Shown here: in pieces, positions 7,506-21,997 of the stretch
How positions within the stretch are numbered: the first letter of the stretch is position 1
Layout of the letters: each line of letters begins with the position of its first letter
Virus record (IMG/VR): IMGVR_UViG_3300030090_001608
Span: 1 to 27,811 of that record
Length of the DNA stretch: 27,811 bases
Source: a virus
Strand: one strand, 5' to 3'
Translations under genes and position numbers: made by a program
Notes under the pieces: model-generated
Told to the model about the DNA's origin: nothing
Databases searched by the model: none
The model's input: the letters and a program-made list of their open reading frames with translations, nothing else

Positions 7506-10500
7506 ATGTCCGAGAAGAAATTCAAGTTTATCTCTCCAGGGGTTTTTACCTCAGAAATAGATAACTCACAAATTCCTAAATCGCCAGCGGAGATTGGCCC
7601 TGTTATTATTGGTAGAACTGCTAAAGGACCAGCATTTAAGCCTACTACGGTTAGCTCGTATGAAGAGTTCGTGCAATTGTTCGGTGATGCTCAAGCAGGC
7701 AATGGCAATGGAACAGATGATGCTTTCAGAAAAAACACCATCTTAGGTCCAACATATGCATCATATGCTGCTCAAGCATGGCTACGCAATAATAATGCAG
7801 CAACTATTGTTCGCTTGATTGGTGAACAACACCCAGAAGCCAGTGATGGAAACACAGCACTTGGTGCAGCAGGATATGACTTTGCTGGCATTGATGCATC
7901 AAATGACTCTCAAGGCGCATTCGGGTTGTTTGTGTTCCCATCAGCATCACTTCCAGCTAACCCAGCTACTGCAAGAAGTCTTTCAGGCACATTGGCTGCT
8001 ATCTTCTACGTTGAAGAGGGACGTCTTATTCTTAGTGGTGCAGGGCCACACGCAACCGCAGCGGGAGGAAACCGAGTAGCCTCTGGTTGTACAATGATTG
8101 AATCTGACGCAAACGGTGAATTTACTATGCAGATCAACCCTGCTGGTAATGCTGACGTTGATAGTCCAACAGAAAAAATTCTGTTTAACTTCAACGAGGC
8201 AAGTGACCGTTTTATTCGTAAAGTATTCAACACAAACCCAACATTAGTAAATGATAATGTTTCCACAGCAACACTAGCTGATGGCTCAAGTCGTGTCAAC
8301 TATGTTTTGGGTGAATCATTTGAAAAGAGAGTTGCTCAAGGAAGCACTTTCCGTGAAATGTTTGTCACAGGCACCGCATATACAGGTAATAAAATGCGTG
8401 GTGTTTTGCTACCTATGCAGAGCGCAGAAGCAACCTCTAATGAGCACGGTGACTTCATGTTTGCTGCCACAAAGGCAACAACAGGTTGGTTCATCTCTCA
8501 GGACTTGACAACTATGAGTAGCTCATATGCTGCGGCATCACAACAGAGATTGTTCCGTTTGGAAGCTCTCTTATCTGGACAATCCACACAAAGAGAAGTT
8601 AAAGTTTCTATCCAGAACGTCAAAGCATCTACAACAAATGATGATCCATATGGCACTTTTGATGTTGTGCTTCGTCGCCTAAGTGACACAGATAATAGGC
8701 AGGTAGTGTTAGAAAGATTCTCAGGATTGAATCTAAACCCATCCTCAGAAAATTACATTGCACGTCGTATTGGTGATCAGTACGAGGTGTATGATACAGG
8801 TGAGAAGAGAAATAGATCCTACGGTGAGTTCGGCAACCAATCAGACTACGTTCGTGTAGTTATGAATGAGGATGTTGCAAGAGCCCAGACTGATCAGCGC
8901 CTCCTTCCATTCGGCTTCTTTGGCCCAGTCAAGTATCGTGACGTTGATTTCCACAGTGGCTCAACAAGCTTTAGCTCATACGGCAAAGCCGAAGGTGGCA
9001 CAGCAGCAGGCGGCAGCGTACACTCAATCATTGATGGAGCGGGCGCAGCTACATTTGGTTCATTAGTGGGACACTCTCTCGCTAAGGTACCTGCAACTGT
9101 TTTGGTTGATACAGGGGTGATCAACATGACTGCAAGTATCCGCTTCCCAGAGTTGCCACTAGTCGCAAGCTCATCTTACGGCTCACCAAACAGCAAAGAG
9201 GTAACTCACTTTGGTGTTTACACAGGTAAGTCTTCAACAGATCCTAAGTTCAACGAAGAAATCCTTGACATCCAGCGCTCATTGAGTAGAGGATTGAAAG
9301 GTTATACGTCTGAAGCCGCACTAGATTTGGCTCAGGTAAATGCTGATGCAGACGATGAGCCAGCACTAGCACAAGTTGGTACTTCTACAGCAACCTCTAG
9401 CGGTAGAATGCACTCCTTTGTATTCTCCCTAGATGATGTTGGCCCAATCCCAGGCAAAACGCTTGAGGCAAAACATGCTTCTGGCTTGCGCAAGGGTGGC
9501 TTCTCATACACCGCAGGTGCCATATCAACTAGCGGTACTCGCACAGTAAGCCAGGGAACTGGATCTTACAAGAACGTGCTTGATCAGGGATATGATAGCT
9601 TCACAACCGTCCTACATGGCGGACATGATGGGCTAAACATTAAAGAAGCAGAGCCATTCAACAATACACGAATGGGAACTGTTGAAACAACTAACTACGC
9701 ACTACACTCAGTCATTAGAGGACTTGACTTAGTGCGTGACCCAGAGGATGTACAGGGTAACCTTTTGGTTGTTCCTGGCATTACAAAGTCACAAGTAACA
9801 GACAAGATGCTAGACATAGCTGAAGATCGTGGTGATATGCTTGCTATCGTGGATCTGGAAGGTGTTTACTCACCAGTAACAGAGAACACAAGCAACTACC
9901 AAACTCGTGCAGGAACAACAGTCAAGAGTGCAGTTGATACGCTAACTCTTCGTAGTCTCAACACCAGTTATGGTGCAGCATACTACCCATGGGTTCGCAC
10001 TCGTGACACCAGAACAAACCAGTTGTTGTGGTTGCCACCATCAATCCCAGCACTAGGTGCCATGTCCTTCACAGATCGTGTTGGCGCACCATGGTTTGCT
10101 CCTGCTGGCCTCCAGCGTGGTGGCTTGTCAGATGGTGCAGGTGGTCTTCCAGTCATTGATGTAACTAAGAAACTAACATCAAAAGATCGTGATGACCTTT
10201 ACGCAGCCAACATTAACCCAATCGCCAAGTTCCCAGCAGAGGGTATTGTAATCTTCGGTCAGAAGACACTACAAACAACTCCATCGGCACTTGATAGAGT
10301 TAATGTACGACGCATGATGATCTTTGTCAAGAGAGAAATCAGTAGAGTTGCAAGTCAGCTATTGTTTGCTGCAAACAGAAAAGAAACATGGAATCGTTTC
10401 ATTGCGCAAGCAGAACCAATCCTTAGAGGTGTGCAATCAAATCTTGGGATTGACGATTTCCGACTTATCTTAGATGAGTCAACAACAACACCAGACCTAA

Positions 10501-10610
10501 TTGATCGTAATATCATTTATGCTAAGGTTCTCATTAAACCAACTAGAACTGCTGAGTTCTTTGCAATAGACTTTAGTATTGCAAGATCTGGTGCTTCTTT
10601 TGCGGACTAA
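7506..10610 (+). CDS. 18: Tail sheath protein, T4 gp18-like, enlarged
   Basis: A 1034-residue sheath subunit, the contractile outer layer of the tail. The N-terminus (FISPGVFTSEIDNSQIPKSP, then GPVIIGRTAKGPAFKP) and the C-terminal domain (GIVIFGQKTLQTTPSALDRV, VNVRRMMIFVKREI, FRLILDESTTTPDLIDRNII) are classic sheath motifs. T4 gp18 has 659 residues; the extra mass lies in the middle (about residues 110-700) as Ser/Gly/Ala-rich insertions that probably decorate the outside of the tail. AGAGGAGAAA precedes the ATG. Strong codon bias fits a very abundant product. The tube gene follows 30 bases later. Confidence 0.93.
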   Translation: MSEKKFKFISPGVFTSEIDNSQIPKSPAEIGPVIIGRTAKGPAFKPTTVSSYEEFVQLFGDAQAGNGNGTDDAFRKNTILGPTYASYAAQAWLRNNNAATIVRLIGEQHPEASDGNTALGAAGYDFAGIDASNDSQGAFGLFVFPSASLPANPATARSLSGTLAAIFYVEEGRLILSGAGPHATAAGGNRVASGCTMIESDANGEFTMQINPAGNADVDSPTEKILFNFNEASDRFIRKVFNTNPTLVNDNVSTATLADGSSRVNYVLGESFEKRVAQGSTFREMFVTGTAYTGNKMRGVLLPMQSAEATSNEHGDFMFAATKATTGWFISQDLTTMSSSYAAASQQRLFRLEALLSGQSTQREVKVSIQNVKASTTNDDPYGTFDVVLRRLSDTDNRQVVLERFSGLNLNPSSENYIARRIGDQYEVYDTGEKRNRSYGEFGNQSDYVRVVMNEDVARAQTDQRLLPFGFFGPVKYRDVDFHSGSTSFSSYGKAEGGTAAGGSVHSIIDGAGAATFGSLVGHSLAKVPATVLVDTGVINMTASIRFPELPLVASSSYGSPNSKEVTHFGVYTGKSSTDPKFNEEILDIQRSLSRGLKGYTSEAALDLAQVNADADDEPALAQVGTSTATSSGRMHSFVFSLDDVGPIPGKTLEAKHASGLRKGGFSYTAGAISTSGTRTVSQGTGSYKNVLDQGYDSFTTVLHGGHDGLNIKEAEPFNNTRMGTVETTNYALHSVIRGLDLVRDPEDVQGNLLVVPGITKSQVTDKMLDIAEDRGDMLAIVDLEGVYSPVTENTSNYQTRAGTTVKSAVDTLTLRSLNTSYGAAYYPWVRTRDTRTNQLLWLPPSIPALGAMSFTDRVGAPWFAPAGLQRGGLSDGAGGLPVIDVTKKLTSKDRDDLYAANINPIAKFPAEGIVIFGQKTLQTTPSALDRVNVRRMMIFVKREISRVASQLLFAANRKETWNRFIAQAEPILRGVQSNLGIDDFRLILDESTTTPDLIDRNIIYAKVLIKPTRTAEFFAIDFSIARSGASFAD

Positions 10611-10640: not shown

Positions 10641-11246
10641 ATGGCATTCTTTGCAGACCAAAAATCAGATCCAAAAAGAGGATTTAGGTTTATACTTAGC
10701 ATCGGAGGTATCCCAGCTTACACCATTAAAACTGTAAGCAAGCCTGGTGTGACAGTTAGTACAATTGAGCATCAGTTTTTGAATCACACCTTTAGGTACC
10801 CTGGGCGAGTGACTTGGGACTCTCCTATCAGCGTTACACTGGTTGATCCAGTAGATCCTGATGTTGCAAGAACTCTCCTTAATAAGATCAAGAATGCGGG
10901 CTACAAATATCCAACCGAGCCCTCAGACTCACAACAGTCAATGACTAAGGACGTTGCTGTTACCACTCTAGAGGGTTGTGTTATTGAGCAGCTTTCAGGC
11001 GATGGCACAACTGCCGTAGAAAGATGGGAACTTAAGAATGCTTTCCTATCTAAAGTAACCTACGGTGATCTTGATTATGGTAGTGAAGACCTTTCACAGA
11101 TCACTATTGAGATTACATATGATTGGGCTGAACTCCGTGAGTCAGGGGCAGTTGATCCATCCCAAACAGTGAGAGAATCACAAGTAGCCAACTCAAACTC
11201 AGAGGGTAGTAGCACGGCCGATCCTAACGCAGCGACGACCGCCTAA
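10641..11246 (+). CDS. 19: Tail tube protein, T4 gp19-like
   Basis: A 201-residue tube subunit (T4 gp19 has 163). It starts MAFFADQKSDPKRGFRFILS. FKNxL-type features of the family are seen in GRVTWDSPISVTLVDPVDPD, VERWELKNAFLSKVTYGDLD and the final strand QITIEITYDWAEL. The last 35 residues (Ser/Asn/Ala-rich) are a likely flexible tail. It follows the sheath directly with its own strong AAGGAGAAA ribosome site. It forms the inner tube through which DNA passes. Confidence 0.92.
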   Translation: MAFFADQKSDPKRGFRFILSIGGIPAYTIKTVSKPGVTVSTIEHQFLNHTFRYPGRVTWDSPISVTLVDPVDPDVARTLLNKIKNAGYKYPTEPSDSQQSMTKDVAVTTLEGCVIEQLSGDGTTAVERWELKNAFLSKVTYGDLDYGSEDLSQITIEITYDWAELRESGAVDPSQTVRESQVANSNSEGSSTADPNAATTA

Positions 11247-11299: not shown

Positions 11300-12166
11300 A
11301 TGGCTAGAAATAATAAACGAACAACTGCCAACTTGGGCGCAGATACCCCAGAGGTGTCTGCTGCCCCTGTTGCGCAGCAAAGTAACGATCAATCCTTTTC
11401 CTGGACAAACCCAACAGAATTTGTTGACTTGCCTTCAGAGGGACTTCGTTATCCACAAGGACATCCACTATATAATCAGACTTCCGTAGAGATTCGTCAC
11501 ATGACTGCTAAGGAAGAGGATATCTTAACATCAGAACCACTTATTCGCAAGGGTATTGTTCTAGATCGCTTGATAGATAGTGTATTAGTAGATAAGTCTA
11601 TTAGATCAGAAAGTCTGTTAATTGGCGATAAGAATGCCATTCTAATAGCGGCAAGAGTAACAGGCTACGGAGAGGACTATGATGTAGCTATTGACTGTCC
11701 TAACTGTGGGGCAAAGAGTAAAGAAACATACCTTATCCCTGAGATCACTAGAACAACAGAGGCCAGTGAGAATATTCCATGGGTGGAACACAATACCTTC
11801 AAGATTATACTTCCTAAAACAAAGGTTGAGGTTGTGTGTCGTTTGATGACTGGTAAAGATGAAGAGACTAATAGGCAAAGAAAAAAGAATATCAAAAAAG
11901 CAGGTTTAGGGCTTGGCATGGGCGAGCTAACATCACAAATGCTTTCTTTTATTGAATCCCTAAATGGAAATACAGATAAGGCTTTCATAAAGTCATTTGT
12001 TCAGAACATGCCTGCATATGACTCTAGGTATCTACGGAGAATATATGGCTCAGCCGTTCCTAATGTTGAATTGGTTACAGACTTTGAGTGCTCTAACTGT
12101 GATCATAGCACCGAAATGGAGGTGCCCCTTACGGCGGGCTTTTTTTGGCCTGACGCAAAGATATAG
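11300..12166 (+). CDS. 26: Baseplate hub / tail assembly chaperone, T4 gp26-like, zero-frame product
   Basis: A 288-residue protein of the T4_baseplate (gp26) type. It has FVDLPSEGLRYPQGHPLY near residue 41, then RHMTAKEEDIL (typical of the family), two Cys pairs (C133/C136 in CPNC, C264/C267 in CSNC) that could bind one zinc, and the end LTAGFFWPDAKI. It sits between the tube and tape measure genes, where tail assembly chaperones are encoded in many long-tailed phages. The codons for Phe281-Phe282-Trp283 lie on seven consecutive T (12140-12146), 18 bases before the stop. A +1-frame continuation overlaps this end, so a longer recoded product of about 343 residues is likely. Ribosome site: AGAAAGG, distant and weak. 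Confidence 0.75.
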   Translation: MARNNKRTTANLGADTPEVSAAPVAQQSNDQSFSWTNPTEFVDLPSEGLRYPQGHPLYNQTSVEIRHMTAKEEDILTSEPLIRKGIVLDRLIDSVLVDKSIRSESLLIGDKNAILIAARVTGYGEDYDVAIDCPNCGAKSKETYLIPEITRTTEASENIPWVEHNTFKIILPKTKVEVVCRLMTGKDEETNRQRKKNIKKAGLGLGMGELTSQMLSFIESLNGNTDKAFIKSFVQNMPAYDSRYLRRIYGSAVPNVELVTDFECSNCDHSTEMEVPLTAGFFWPDAKI

Positions 12167-12332
12167 CCAAAGTGTCTATGAAGAGTTTTTTCTGCTCAAG
12201 TACCATGGGGGCTGGAGCTTCGTAGAGGCATACAACCTACCAGTACGATTAAGGAGGTGGTTTCTGCAAAGACTAGCAGATCAAATTAAACAAGAGAACG
12301 AAGCTATGAAGGAGCAGACAAAGGGGAGGTAA
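12147..12332 (+). CDS. +1-frame extension of the gp26-like gene (probable frameshift product)
   Basis: About 61 codons, open in the +1 frame of the upstream gene, from the seven-T run to a TAA. The encoded SVYEEFFLLKYHGGWSFVEA, followed by YNLPVRLRRWFLQRL and a charged helix, is a plausible folded domain. It resembles the short second domains added to tail chaperones by frameshifting. No ATG, GTG or TTG occurs in this frame between the T-run and the conserved-looking part. The nearest upstream in-frame ATG with a ribosome site (12045, after ACGGAGA) would add some 34 residues read out of frame from the gp26-like gene. A +1 slip of tRNA-Phe on TTT-TTT-T re-pairs perfectly. Alternatives: internal initiation at 12045, or a homopolymer sequencing error. 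Confidence 0.6.
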   Translation, partial: GLTQRYSQSVYEEFFLLKYHGGWSFVEAYNLPVRLRRWFLQRLADQIKQENEAMKEQTKGR

Positions 12333-12349
12333 AACTCCTCTTTTGTTTT
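12323..12349 (+). terminator. Intrinsic terminator after the gp26-like region
   Basis: GGGGAG (12323-12328) pairs with CTCCTC (12335-12340), six pairs with one G-T, around GTAAAA, followed by TTTTGTTTT. The stop codon of the +1-frame extension lies in the loop. This supports the gene really ending here. Confidence 0.72.
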
Positions 12350-12371: not shown

Positions 12372-12392
12372 AATAAGATGGGGTGTTATATT

Positions 12393-12713
12393 ATGGATTT
12401 TGAAAACACAGTTATAGATCTTGGTGCAAAGCGACGTGGAGAACTAAATGAAAGTGTTCTAAACATCTTTGCAGCATGGGTACAATACTTGTTAGAGAAG
12501 ATGTTCAAAGGTCAGACTATACCCGTCAAGGTCCGAGGTAACAAATTAGAGGTGATGCGTTTTACTGGTGCGCTTACCGCAGAGAAACGTTACATTGATG
12601 GAATTAAAAAATATGGATTAGATAGCCCACTCACTTACAAAAACAGAGTCAAGCTCCAACGTCAAATTAAGTTGTTTGAGCGTGAAACAGGTATTGAGTG
12701 GCCTATCAAGTAG
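12393..12713 (+). CDS. Small conserved-looking protein before the tape measure
   Basis: A 106-residue protein if begun at MDFENTVIDLG. An in-frame ATG five codons earlier (12378) has no ribosome site, while GGGGTG lies just upstream of this one. Helical segments (LNIFAAWVQYLLEKMFKG) and a charged C-terminal half (EKRYIDGIKKYGLDSP, RQIKLFERETGIEWP) are visible. No enzyme motif is present. Proteins of this length and pattern sit before tape measure genes in other T4-like marine phages, as I recall, but I know no function. It may help baseplate or tape measure assembly. Moderately confident that it is real, unsure of its role. Confidence 0.7.
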   Translation: MDFENTVIDLGAKRRGELNESVLNIFAAWVQYLLEKMFKGQTIPVKVRGNKLEVMRFTGALTAEKRYIDGIKKYGLDSPLTYKNRVKLQRQIKLFERETGIEWPIK

Positions 12714-12724
12714 AGGTGCTATAG

Positions 12725-15664
12725 ATGGCAGCCGATGATAAAACTATACAAAACTTAACTGGCGCTATAGAGCGCTTGATTAAGGCAGTTGAAGCAGGTG
12801 CTGAATCTGGAAACGGTGAAGCTGGTTCACCAAAGCCTGGTCAGAGTGTAATATCCGACGCAATCACTGCGGCACAGGCTGAAGCTGCACAGACCTTCAC
12901 AGACACCATAGAGGAACTTAATAAGAGACTAGAGAAGAAGCAAACCCTTGAGCAGATGTCAAATGATAATATCCAAAAAACCAAAGACGATCTTCAAGCA
13001 TTTCTTCAACTTCAAAAAGAAGCGGTGCAAAATGGTGAAGAGCTAACTCAAGAATTCTTAAACCAAGGAAAACAACTAGAATCTATTCTGAGTGCCCGCC
13101 AGACACAATTGTTATACGACGAAGAGCAAGTTAAACTGGCACAGGAAGAATTAGACAAAGCCAGTAAAGCCCAGGAACATTTTGAGAAGGCTGGTAAAAC
13201 CTCAGAGAAGATGCTAGGCTTCTTGAAAAAAGCTTTACAAGATACTAGAAAAGAGATGGGTCAATTCATAGATGCTACAACAGATACAAATCTTTCAGCC
13301 CAATTGTTTTCATTTATGGGAATGTTCAGCAAACTTAAAGCAGATATCTATCAAGGGGTCCAAGACTTTGACAAGGCTGTAGCCGACCTTAATAAGGAAG
13401 GCTTGGGAAATATAGTAACTTCTCTTGGAGATGCTCAGGTAGAATTTGCACAATTTGGTTTGGGTGCCAAAGAAGCAGAGGGTTTCTTAAAGGGCTTAGG
13501 CAGTTCAACCTCAACGTTTAGGTTTGAGTCGGAAGATGCCAGAGCAGAAATATTAAAGACTGCTGGTGCTTTTAACAAACTCGGAGTTGACGGTGCAGCA
13601 TTTGGTGAACTCCAGGCAACACTATCTAGAAACCTAAGAATGAATTCTGAGCAGGTCGCCGATTTTGGAGACAGATTAGCTGGACTGAGTAAGACAACTG
13701 GTAAATCTGTAGCATCTTTGGTAAGTGATTTCAATCAAGCTGGTGATGGTATTTTACAATTTGGTGATAAAGCTGCTGATGTTTTCATGGATACACAAAA
13801 GATAGCTGCAAAGTTTGGCATATCTGTTAGTGATGTTTTAGATGTCTTTGATAAATTTGACACAGTTGAAGGTGCAGCAGATATAGTTGGCAGACTAAAC
13901 GCACAGTTCGGAACTCAAATAGATATGTTATCCCTGATGCGGGCTGAAACACCTGAAGAAAGATTTAACATGTTGCGAGAGTCACTAGAAGCAACAGGTA
14001 GATCATTCAGCGACCTGTCCAGGCTTGAGCAGAAAGCTATGGCAGATATCATGGGTAAAGATATAGGCTTCTTAGATAGGATGATGGGCGACGGTGCTGT
14101 CCTAACTGAAAGTCAACAGGCCCTAAAAGATCTAGCCGAATCCGCAATGAGTGCGGGTGAGCGTGCAAAAGCTATTTTTGATAAGATTACAGCCAGACTA
14201 CAGAAGGATGGCGTCTTTGAAAAGATACAGAAAGTTATAACGGAAATCTTTGCCGAGGGTGGTCCGTTTGAGAAATTTGCTAATATGATGTTGCCTATTG
14301 CAGTTAGGGCAGTTAGCTATATGGTTAGCGGATTCAAGGCATTCTTAAGTATTGCTAATACTGTAGTGCCAATAATTGGCTTTATTGGTGGTGCGATCGT
14401 ATCATTTGTGATGACGCCTGTTTATGGTGTTATAAACTTGTTTAAGGGCTTGATAGGTATACTTGGTGGTGTGTTTGATATTATTGTAGGTATATTTACC
14501 TTTGACTTTGGTAGAATTGTTGATGGTTTCAAGGGCATCTTTGGTGGTCTTGTTAAAGGTGTGATAGGCGTATTTCAATTAGCTATTACTTTCTTTGCCC
14601 CAGCAAGAATCCTCGGGATTTTGGCAGCGCCGTTTAAAATGTTTGGTGGTTTTGTTCTTAATATGTTTAAAGGAGTTGGCTCGGGTGTTGGTAGTGTATT
14701 TGGAAAATTGTTGGGCCCCATCAAATCAGTCTTTGGGAAAATAGGTGATTTTATAGGTGGATTTGCTACTAAGGCGAAGGACAGCGTTAAATCTGTTACT
14801 GCTCCATTTACAAAACTAAAAGATGGTTTGACTAGTGCGCTCACAAAAGCAAAAGACTTTGCTGTTGGCGCATTTACAAAAATAAAAGACACGGCTGTTG
14901 GTGCGTTTACAAAAGCGAAAGAGATGACAGTTGGTGCATTCACAAAAGCAAAAGATATGGTAGTCGGCGCATTCGCAAAAGTAAAAGATACGATTGGCGG
15001 CGCAGTGAATTTTGTAAAAGAAAAGTTTGGCGCTGTTGGAGCCGCTATAGCAAAACCATTCGTAGCTGTAGGCAACTTCATTAGAGCCAAATTAATAACA
15101 CCAATTCAGAATTTCTTAGCCAAGGTCCAAAACAAAATCCGCAGTGTGATGAACAAGATCAGAAAAATACCAGGCGCTAGCTTCTTCTTTGGGCCAGCAG
15201 AAACCGTTGCTAAAGCAGGGGCAGAGGCCGCAAAAGCCACTGTAAGGGCTGGCACGGCTACGGCAGTCCAAACTGCGCAGGGCGTCGCCGTGCAGGGAGT
15301 ATTGAACGCCACAGGTGGGAATGCTCTAATAGATAAGGCAACAGGCGTTGAATCACTCACATCAACACCAGGCTCCTCAGTCTTCGGGTCAACACCTGCA
15401 CCAGAGCAGGCGCTGGCCAGGGGTGGTATTATTAAGCCAGGTGCTTCAGGAATTGTTGGTGACCCAATAACACCAGGCGTGCCAAACATAGAGCGTGTGA
15501 CCGTTACTTCACAAGGTGCGATGGTTCAACCCATGGCAGCCTCTGGTGGCGGCACTGGTGGCGCACAACAAGCAACTATAGTGCTTAATGTAGATGGTAA
15601 CGAAATGGGTAAAACAGTTGTTGACTTGCTTGATGGTCAGTACAATACAGTTCTAGGAAATTAG
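12725..15664 (+). CDS. Tape measure protein
   Basis: A 979-residue tail tape measure protein, which fills the tube and sets tail length. Residues 1-180 are a long predicted coiled coil (EELNKRLEKKQTLEQMSNDN onward). About 180-510 are helical with Phe-rich repeats. About 520-640 are very hydrophobic with several membrane-like stretches (VVPIIGFIGGAIVSFVM and following), as in other tape measures that insert in the inner membrane at DNA entry. Residues 707-761 are five tandem 11-residue repeats like TKAKDMVVGAF. The C-terminus is Ala/Gly-rich and ends in QATIVLNVDGNEMGKTVVDL. At about 0.15 nm per residue it would span close to 150 nm, a rough estimate. AGAGGTG precedes the start. It occupies the place of T4 gp29 (590 residues). 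Confidence 0.88.
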   Translation: MAADDKTIQNLTGAIERLIKAVEAGAESGNGEAGSPKPGQSVISDAITAAQAEAAQTFTDTIEELNKRLEKKQTLEQMSNDNIQKTKDDLQAFLQLQKEAVQNGEELTQEFLNQGKQLESILSARQTQLLYDEEQVKLAQEELDKASKAQEHFEKAGKTSEKMLGFLKKALQDTRKEMGQFIDATTDTNLSAQLFSFMGMFSKLKADIYQGVQDFDKAVADLNKEGLGNIVTSLGDAQVEFAQFGLGAKEAEGFLKGLGSSTSTFRFESEDARAEILKTAGAFNKLGVDGAAFGELQATLSRNLRMNSEQVADFGDRLAGLSKTTGKSVASLVSDFNQAGDGILQFGDKAADVFMDTQKIAAKFGISVSDVLDVFDKFDTVEGAADIVGRLNAQFGTQIDMLSLMRAETPEERFNMLRESLEATGRSFSDLSRLEQKAMADIMGKDIGFLDRMMGDGAVLTESQQALKDLAESAMSAGERAKAIFDKITARLQKDGVFEKIQKVITEIFAEGGPFEKFANMMLPIAVRAVSYMVSGFKAFLSIANTVVPIIGFIGGAIVSFVMTPVYGVINLFKGLIGILGGVFDIIVGIFTFDFGRIVDGFKGIFGGLVKGVIGVFQLAITFFAPARILGILAAPFKMFGGFVLNMFKGVGSGVGSVFGKLLGPIKSVFGKIGDFIGGFATKAKDSVKSVTAPFTKLKDGLTSALTKAKDFAVGAFTKIKDTAVGAFTKAKEMTVGAFTKAKDMVVGAFAKVKDTIGGAVNFVKEKFGAVGAAIAKPFVAVGNFIRAKLITPIQNFLAKVQNKIRSVMNKIRKIPGASFFFGPAETVAKAGAEAAKATVRAGTATAVQTAQGVAVQGVLNATGGNALIDKATGVESLTSTPGSSVFGSTPAPEQALARGGIIKPGASGIVGDPITPGVPNIERVTVTSQGAMVQPMAASGGGTGGAQQATIVLNVDGNEMGKTVVDLLDGQYNTVLGN
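14843..15007 (+). repeat. Five tandem 33-bp repeats in the tape measure gene
   Basis: Five in-frame units of 33 bases, starting at 14843, 14876, 14909, 14942 and 14975. Each encodes 11 residues on the pattern (T/A)KxK(D/E)xxxGA(F/V). Third positions vary between units, so the repeat is conserved at protein level. Gain or loss of a unit would change the protein by 11 residues. Confidence 0.9.
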
Positions 15665-20779: not shown

Positions 20780-21997
20780 ATGTTATTTCAGACACTAGAT
20801 GATAAGAGACAATGCGTTGGTATTTATTTTGACAGCGAATTGTATTTTGATTTAGATGACTTCCCGCAAGATCTGACCAGAAGCTGGAGATACACCCCAT
20901 TCATGCAAGGGTATAGGGGGGTAGAATATGCAGAGATATATGCGCTAGGTAAAACTATTGATGAGTGCTGCCCAGATCACCTACGAGATGACTGGGAACT
21001 GGCACAGCAACGCATCAAGGCTTTCATCAAAGCCAATAGAACTGCTGGCTTATCCTCCTCCGCTTATTGTATGTTTGACATGATACCGCCCACCTTTCTA
21101 AAGCAATTCTGTCATGCGAAAAACCTTATCAGCGACTGGGTGATATCAAACTACAAAAAGCCAATCAACTACAGGCACCTGTTAGCCACAACAGAGATGC
21201 TACGGGACATAGAGCACTACGATGTTCAGATTGATGATGATATATTGCAGTCTAAAGCTGATGATCCATCTGCTAGAGTGTTGCTTGAAAAGGTTAACAA
21301 TCGTAAAACAAAAGTAAAATATAATCTCTTTACCACCAGAACAGGACGCCTGGCAACGACTAAGCGATCATTTCCCCTGTTTACTCTTAAGAAAGAGCAC
21401 AGAGATGTGATAACCCCTAAGAACGATATGTTGGTAGAATTAGATTTCAACGGAGCAGAATTAAGAACACTACTGGCCTTGTCGGGCAAAGTTCAACCTG
21501 ATGGCGACGTCCATGACTGGAATGTACACAATGTATTTAATGATCGTGTTAGTAGAGAGGATGCAAAGGTGCTGTTCTTCTCTTGGTTATATGGATCAAG
21601 GTCTGATGATTTAAAAGAGTGGTCTAGGCCGCTTGGATTGGCTTATGAAACCAGGCAACTTAAAAGAAAGTATTTTGATGATGGGTTAGTACTAACTCCA
21701 CATGGCAGAAAGCTTGAATGCAGTGATCGTCTTTTTGTCAACTACTTGATACAATCTACAACTGCTGATCTATGTTATGAGCAATTTGTAAAAGTATGGT
21801 CTATGTTGCGGAACAAGTCTAGTGAAGTTGCCTTTGTTTTACATGATGCTGTTGTCATTGACCTAAAACTAGAGGATAAAGATTTGATAGAGCAGATGGC
21901 AAAAGTTATGAGCCAGACTCGTTTTGGTAAATTTTCAGTCAATGTTAGCATAGGGAAAAACTTCAAAGATATGAGGAAGACAAAAATAAGTGTTTAG
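20780..21997 (+). CDS. Compact family A DNA polymerase lacking an exonuclease domain
   Basis: A 405-residue polymerase of the Pol I type. Motif A is LDFNGAELR (Asp222, Glu227). Motif B fits Rx3Kx7YG exactly (Arg259, Lys263, Phe267, Tyr271, Gly272). Motif C is LHDA (His355, Asp356) with Ala357 where HDE is usual. The TRTGRLATTKRSFPL segment (about 187-200) and NYLIQSTTADL (321-331) also match the family. The roughly 180 residues before TGR are too few for a 3'-5' exonuclease domain and show none of its motifs. It presumably copies the phage genome with the UvsX, SSB, helicase and nuclease proteins nearby. T4 itself uses a family B enzyme. Phe267 corresponds to E. coli Phe762. The ribosome site is weak (GATAGG). 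The end overlaps the next gene by eight bases. Confidence 0.88.
   Translation: MLFQTLDDKRQCVGIYFDSELYFDLDDFPQDLTRSWRYTPFMQGYRGVEYAEIYALGKTIDECCPDHLRDDWELAQQRIKAFIKANRTAGLSSSAYCMFDMIPPTFLKQFCHAKNLISDWVISNYKKPINYRHLLATTEMLRDIEHYDVQIDDDILQSKADDPSARVLLEKVNNRKTKVKYNLFTTRTGRLATTKRSFPLFTLKKEHRDVITPKNDMLVELDFNGAELRTLLALSGKVQPDGDVHDWNVHNVFNDRVSREDAKVLFFSWLYGSRSDDLKEWSRPLGLAYETRQLKRKYFDDGLVLTPHGRKLECSDRLFVNYLIQSTTADLCYEQFVKVWSMLRNKSSEVAFVLHDAVVIDLKLEDKDLIEQMAKVMSQTRFGKFSVNVSIGKNFKDMRKTKISV

Follow-up and report, generated by a model that had tools for sequence, protein, structure and literature searches.

The chaperone gene and its overlapping frames

The DNA considered here, called the window, is the virus record IMGVR_UViG_3300030090_001608 (27,811 bases), and the element in question is a putative programmed ribosomal frameshift in its tail assembly chaperone gene. 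The zero-frame product of this gene (11300-12166) matches PF12322 with 39.2 bits against a curated cut-off of 24.5 and phrog_150 with an E-value of 1.6e-11. An AlphaFold model of the same product (predicted local distance difference test score, pLDDT, of 86) has a fold that matches baseplate hub proteins of the gp26/51 type. As judged from the profile matches, the gene is a tail assembly chaperone of the T4 gp26/gp51 family. An initial annotation, made from the letters of the window, had drawn attention to a seven-T run in a gp26-like tail assembly gene, and both the run and the family are borne out. The run is read in the zero frame as TTT TTT TGG and 17 nucleotides (nt) separate it from the zero-frame TAG, so that the stop does follow shortly, as had been claimed, although the gap had been put at 18. 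The +1 frame is indeed open across the run, from 12141 to a TAA at 12330-12332, and encodes a 63-amino acid (aa) helical domain, FFGLTQRYSQSVYEEFFLLKYHGGWSFVEAYNLPVRLRRWFLQRLADQIKQENEAMKEQTKGR. It had also been stated that this frame has no start codon of its own; this holds for the conserved segment, but farther upstream in the window there are candidates (GTG at -42 and ATG at -78, -96 and -123 relative to 12141), all of which fall outside that segment. The locus most probably encodes a chaperone made in a short and a long form from one mRNA by a +1 shift, a reading for which the comparative evidence is set out below. The coordinates of the features are collected in Table 1.

Table 1. Features of the chaperone locus and the surrounding tail genes in the window
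Feature	Position	Strand	Remarks
Sheath	7506-10610		Tail module member
Tail tube protein, gp19-like	10641..11246	+	Upstream neighbour; PF06841 E 2.5e-8, phrog_4542 E 2.9e-25
Zero-frame short form, TAC-N ('G')	11300..12166	+	288 aa; T4 gp26/gp51 family; CxxC pairs
Shine-Dalgarno-like element TGGAGGTG	12117..12124	+	GGAGGT-type; upstream of shift site; duplex -10.6 kcal/mol
Putative slip site TTT TTT T	12140..12146	+	tRNA-Phe on UUU would re-pair with UUU after +1
+1-frame extension ('T' domain)	12141..12332	+	Predicted to give the 343-aa long form TAC-NC; TAA at 12330-12332
Zero-frame stop TAG	12164..12166	+	End of short form
Terminator-like hairpin with T-rich tail	12320..12344	+	At extension end; pattern match alone
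111-aa open reading frame	12378..12713	+	Between chaperone and tape measure genes; no Pfam/PHROG match
Tail length tape measure protein	12725..15664	+	Expected chaperone client; phrog_1535 E 9e-22

Conservation of the frame relation

Viral contigs were scanned twice, once with each half of the long form as query, and 158 loci were retrieved; since either half served as query, the frame relation played no part in locus selection. All 157 of the loci that hold both halves have the second one in the +1 frame, even where identity in the first half falls to about 37%. Distinct junctions, with the window included, number 120. One contig (L001) is 97% identical and shares the window's frame relation, as do 156 further loci, and chance or a lone sequencing error can therefore be excluded. 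The same relation is found in seven of eight phage records, namely those of Mel-JY01 (host Microcystis), immuto (Flavobacterium), LIS04 (Listeria), SP-15 (Bacillus), GXN1 (Streptococcus), RM378 (Rhodothermus) and LR756508, a 484-kb phage, and also at 17 loci from genome bins of bacteria or archaea, which are probably prophages or binned phage contigs. There are two exceptions. One Aquificaceae locus is without the extension. In the 595 kb phage LR756511 (L168, near 3230) the extension lies in the -1 frame after T TTT TTC (GGT TTT TTC); this is the sole member near the +1 clade with a -1 extension, which suggests that the shift changed direction while staying at the same position.

A stop closes the +1 frame 3 or 9 nt ahead of the slip site in many relatives, with no ATG, GTG or TTG ahead of that site or just past it, and 37 of the 120 junctions have none of these codons between -60 and +30. 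The extension must in such relatives be reached from the zero frame. Across the relatives the zero-frame stop lies 14-23 nt after the start of the +1 segment. The possibility that relatives might carry the second segment as a separate gene with its own start, which would have spoken against a shift, thus fails for these loci. That a slip site and a frame relation should be kept together across such deep divergence favours the programmed frameshift proposed initially.

The putative slip site and the probable direction of the shift

Most slip sites read TTT TTT T, with TTC TTT T, TTT CTT, TTT CTA, TTT TTT C, TTT TTT A and TTC TTT C as variants, and at some the T run is only three or four long (TTTCTTTGG, TTTCTATGG, TTCTTTTGG). 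Counts of sites are phylogenetically non-independent, though the sequences are very divergent; with this understood, UUU followed by U or C is available at 144 of 144 sites, in agreement with the suggestion that a tRNA on TTT could re-pair after a +1 slip. The Phe at the slip site is an invariant alignment column. The second codon of the site is TTT in 115 cases, CTT in four and CTA in one, and never TTC, although TTC accounts for 31% of Phe codons elsewhere in the gene. Re-pairing after a -2 slip is absent at 23 of the 144 sites, in several lineages in which the frame relation is still kept, and these 23 are also without a long T run. The choice of +1 or -2 offered by the initial annotation therefore narrows to +1. 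As far as the natural variants can tell, the essential element is UUU followed by U or C rather than the seven-T run itself: the frame relation, one of two things expected to be conserved, is kept, whereas the length of the run is not essential.

The upstream Shine-Dalgarno-like element

In 71 of the 120 loci the best Shine-Dalgarno (SD)-like 8-mer begins 23 nt ahead of the slip site, and in 38 it begins 29-30 nt ahead. With synonymous recoding according to each gene's own codon use as the null, predicted pairing to the anti-SD is stronger than expected at this place, by -4.4 kcal/mol, and differs by about zero elsewhere in the gene (120 loci). The Glu codon inside the element is GAG in 74 cases and GAA in two, and elsewhere in the gene GAA is the majority codon. 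By this measure the element is selected at the codon level, beyond what the protein would demand. In distant members it is weak or shifted in position. Use of the element for initiation in the window is unlikely because no start codon lies at initiation distance, the 15 nt between the element and the T run containing none.

The extension domain

Profile comparison shows homology of the extension with cyanophage gp51 and with the C-terminal domain of T4 gp51, in answer to the search proposed initially for the +1 segment. Alone it matches DUF6760 weakly (E 1e-4). A profile of the +1 extensions aligns end to end with one built from cyanophage gp51 together with T4-like gp51 C-termini (hhalign probability 94%, E 1.2e-7, score 38.1), and the controls scored 9.2 when reversed and 15.6 as the best of 60 column shuffles. 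For this match a broader profile of the extension was needed, as an earlier extension profile gave no match to a small T4 gp51 alignment. On phrog_150, the end of T4 gp26 falls at position 235 and that of T4 gp51 at 280; cyanophage gp51, of 57 aa, spans 239-278. A model of the extension (pLDDT of 90) has three helices and resembles gp51 of phage P-HM1 (template modelling score on the target 0.81), although at this chain length the Foldseek E-values are weak. A search of PDB sequences gave no relative of either the short form or the extension. By the hhalign result the long form carries the gp51 C-terminal domain, as is expected in the PF12322 family, and this homology implies that the pair would be the short and long (G/GT) chaperones of a T4-type tail. 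In one genome from a search of Bacteroidota (L299) PF12322 and DUF6760 occur as one continuous protein with both above cut-off, so that the predicted long form joins parts that are also found joined in nature. L300 likewise appears to have an in-frame PF12322-DUF6760 fusion, the domains having been confirmed for L299.

A different arrangement of DUF6760 was seen in genomes of Actinomycetota and in one genome that came from the Bacteroidota search (L286, L288, L289, L291, L292, L294, L295, L296 and L298), where the domain lies in the -1 frame after a chaperone-like gene, which in L291 matches the phrog_508 tail assembly chaperone. The junctions read ...CTG GGG GAA TCG TGA or similar and are compatible with a -1 slip at G GGG or, alternatively, with a start at an overlapping GTGA, of which the GTG is absent from the junctions of L292, L295 and L298. 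These are possibly an injection-system version of the chaperone and extension pair.

Proposed mechanism and alternatives

Under the +1 reading most ribosomes would stop at 12166 and give the 288-aa short form, while a smaller number, holding peptidyl-tRNA-Phe at UUU within the T run, would slip one base forward from UUU to UUU (or, in some relatives, from UUU to UUC), resume from GGC at 12147 and produce the 343-aa long form with its C-terminal helical domain. If lambda G/GT is a guide, coating of the tape measure protein would fall to the short form, and the extension would serve to recruit the tail tube subunit. The occurrence of the shift and its efficiency, the ratio and functions of both products and the part played by the SD-like element are all matters that we infer.

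Several observations sit uneasily with this proposal. The codon after the slip is UGG in most loci (UUU, CUU, AGU or CAC elsewhere) and is neither a stop nor obviously starved, and a scan for downstream stem-loops at nine offsets found none that stood out (mean z from -1.04 to 0.02 against mononucleotide shuffles). The SD-like element is far from the site and variably spaced, unlike those of prfB and dnaX, where the spacing is 3 nt and 10 nt. An ATG is present between -60 and +30 in 52 of the 120 relatives, mostly at extension residue 9, and these may make an additional free T product; this ATG is confined to a subset and is not conserved. In cyanophages, moreover, gp51 has an ATG 5 nt past the stop. 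This last point would favour the extension being an independent small gene that has a start of its own, as it is annotated by GenBank in Mel-JY01, and start codons do lie nearby in some relatives. Such a gene is nonetheless very unlikely, given that start positions are not conserved, that in many relatives a start codon is lacking and the +1 frame meets a stop 3 or 9 nt ahead of the slip site, and that the SD-like element of the window has no start at initiation distance.

A -2 ribosomal shift at the same run would yield the same frame with one extra Phe in the product. It has a precedent in the tail genes of phage Mu (PMC5009743), it could re-pair perfectly on TTTTTTT at 121 of the 144 sites, and at long spacing the expected effect of an SD-like element is a backward pull on the ribosome, not a forward push. 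The remaining 23 sites, which keep the frame with no such re-pairing (TTC TTT TGG, TTT CTT TGG, TTT CTA TGG, TTC TTT CGT), make this explanation improbable. Slippage of RNA polymerase on the T run would generate mixed mRNAs, some with six T; a run of seven is near the length at which slippage starts, and the loss of one T would give the same product. Conservation of the arrangement with runs of only three or four T argues against transcriptional slippage, and we consider it highly improbable. Homopolymers are also prone to error, and it had been foreseen that the run might on re-reading prove to be six T; alternatively, the gene might be decayed in this contig. Seven T are read, however, and the frame relation is shared by the 157 retrieved loci, L001 included, and by cultured phages, so that an indel error or a decayed gene can for practical purposes be dismissed. 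The +1 shift within the T run consequently remains the preferred account of the locus. A wider proposal, that a class of +1 shift by peptidyl-tRNA-Phe on UUU-Y, requiring no stop or starved A-site codon and influenced by an SD-like element some 16-30 nt upstream and outside the known working range, operates throughout the T4-type chaperones other than those of T4 and the cyanophages, is possible, though we would rate it at rather less than an even prospect.

Gene neighbourhood

The window contains a T4-type contractile tail module with sheath, tube, chaperone gene, 111-aa open reading frame and tape measure gene in that order, and the overlapping frames of the chaperone gene thus sit between the tube and tape measure genes, as in the G/GT type. 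The terminator proposed after the extension corresponds to a terminator-like hairpin, although as a pattern match alone. Farther along, a 405-aa open reading frame (20780-21997) has, by eye, a likeness to a short family-A DNA polymerase domain. When phages were searched at the DNA level, no near relative turned up.

Comparison with known systems

In common with lambda G/GT, a single gene placed between those for the tube and tape measure proteins would give both a short and a long chaperone, the extension being reached by a frameshift, and a stop follows soon after the slip site; the difference is that lambda shifts -1 and the window apparently +1, at UUU-Y in the PF12322 family. The -1 heptamer X XXY YYZ is the commonest form among G/GT-type chaperones, though not an obligatory one, -2 and +1 members being known, and it is not the arrangement here, the window and all close relatives being +1. 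In this family -1 is confined to cyanophages and LR756511. Most frameshifted tail assembly chaperones are -1, as in lambda, with -2 in Mu and T4 as a named exception, and a +1 shift is very likely in the corresponding tail gene of HSTV-2 (PMC5009743). The Listeria phages PSA, A118 and A500 also reach a C-terminal extension by +1, but PSA does so at a proline codon that adjoins a stop or pseudoknot (PMC5009743). In phage 0305phi8-36 the tail chaperonin likewise has short and long forms, but these come from paralogous genes without a shift (PMC2147016). The +1 shift of Escherichia coli prfB takes place at CUU before an A-site stop with the SD 3 nt upstream, whereas in the window the stop lies 17 nt after the run and the SD-like element ends 15 nt before it.

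The cyanophage gp26/gp51 loci resemble the window in having a short form followed by a homologous 57-aa domain and an upstream SD-like element. They differ in that the second domain is in the -1 frame at T TTT TTC, with the SD-like element about 10 nt upstream (dnaX-like) and an ATG after the stop. The T TTT TTC is invariant in 80 loci (L204-L283) and is also kept in P-SSM2 (L203:6495-7390), although gp51 is annotated as a separate gene. T4 has the same family (PF12322/phrog_150), with gp26 ending where the zero frame ends and gp51 holding the extension domain, but as two separate genes with no shift, where the window and its relatives have one gene with a frame change. Vladimirov in 2022 reportedly identified tail assembly chaperones of T4-like phages that use a mechanism other than frameshifting. 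Of two later papers that cite this work, one takes it to describe, for some T4-like phages, a short gene together with a long fusion gene (PMC10885494), and the other refers to it on T4-like poly-T signals for -1 shifting (PMC12846349). T4 gp26/gp51 as short and long forms is thus probably already known; the broad +1 clade, the UUU-Y site and the upstream element appear, within the literature searched, to be new.

In a tree of the first half, which is unrooted and drawn at the midpoint, all 49 of 49 +1 sequences group together with the -1 LR756511, on a long and uncertain branch, and on the other side T4 (two genes) is found with the cyanophages (-1 heptamer). On such a tree three changes would suffice for the three arrangements (+1, -1 and two genes). 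A large part of the T4-type chaperone family, assigned to many host phyla, bears the marks of the rarer +1 shift and, for this reason, the two-gene state of T4 looks like a lineage-specific alternative. The same G/GT-type pair is apparently made by a +1 shift here, by a -1 heptamer in cyanophages and by two genes in T4.
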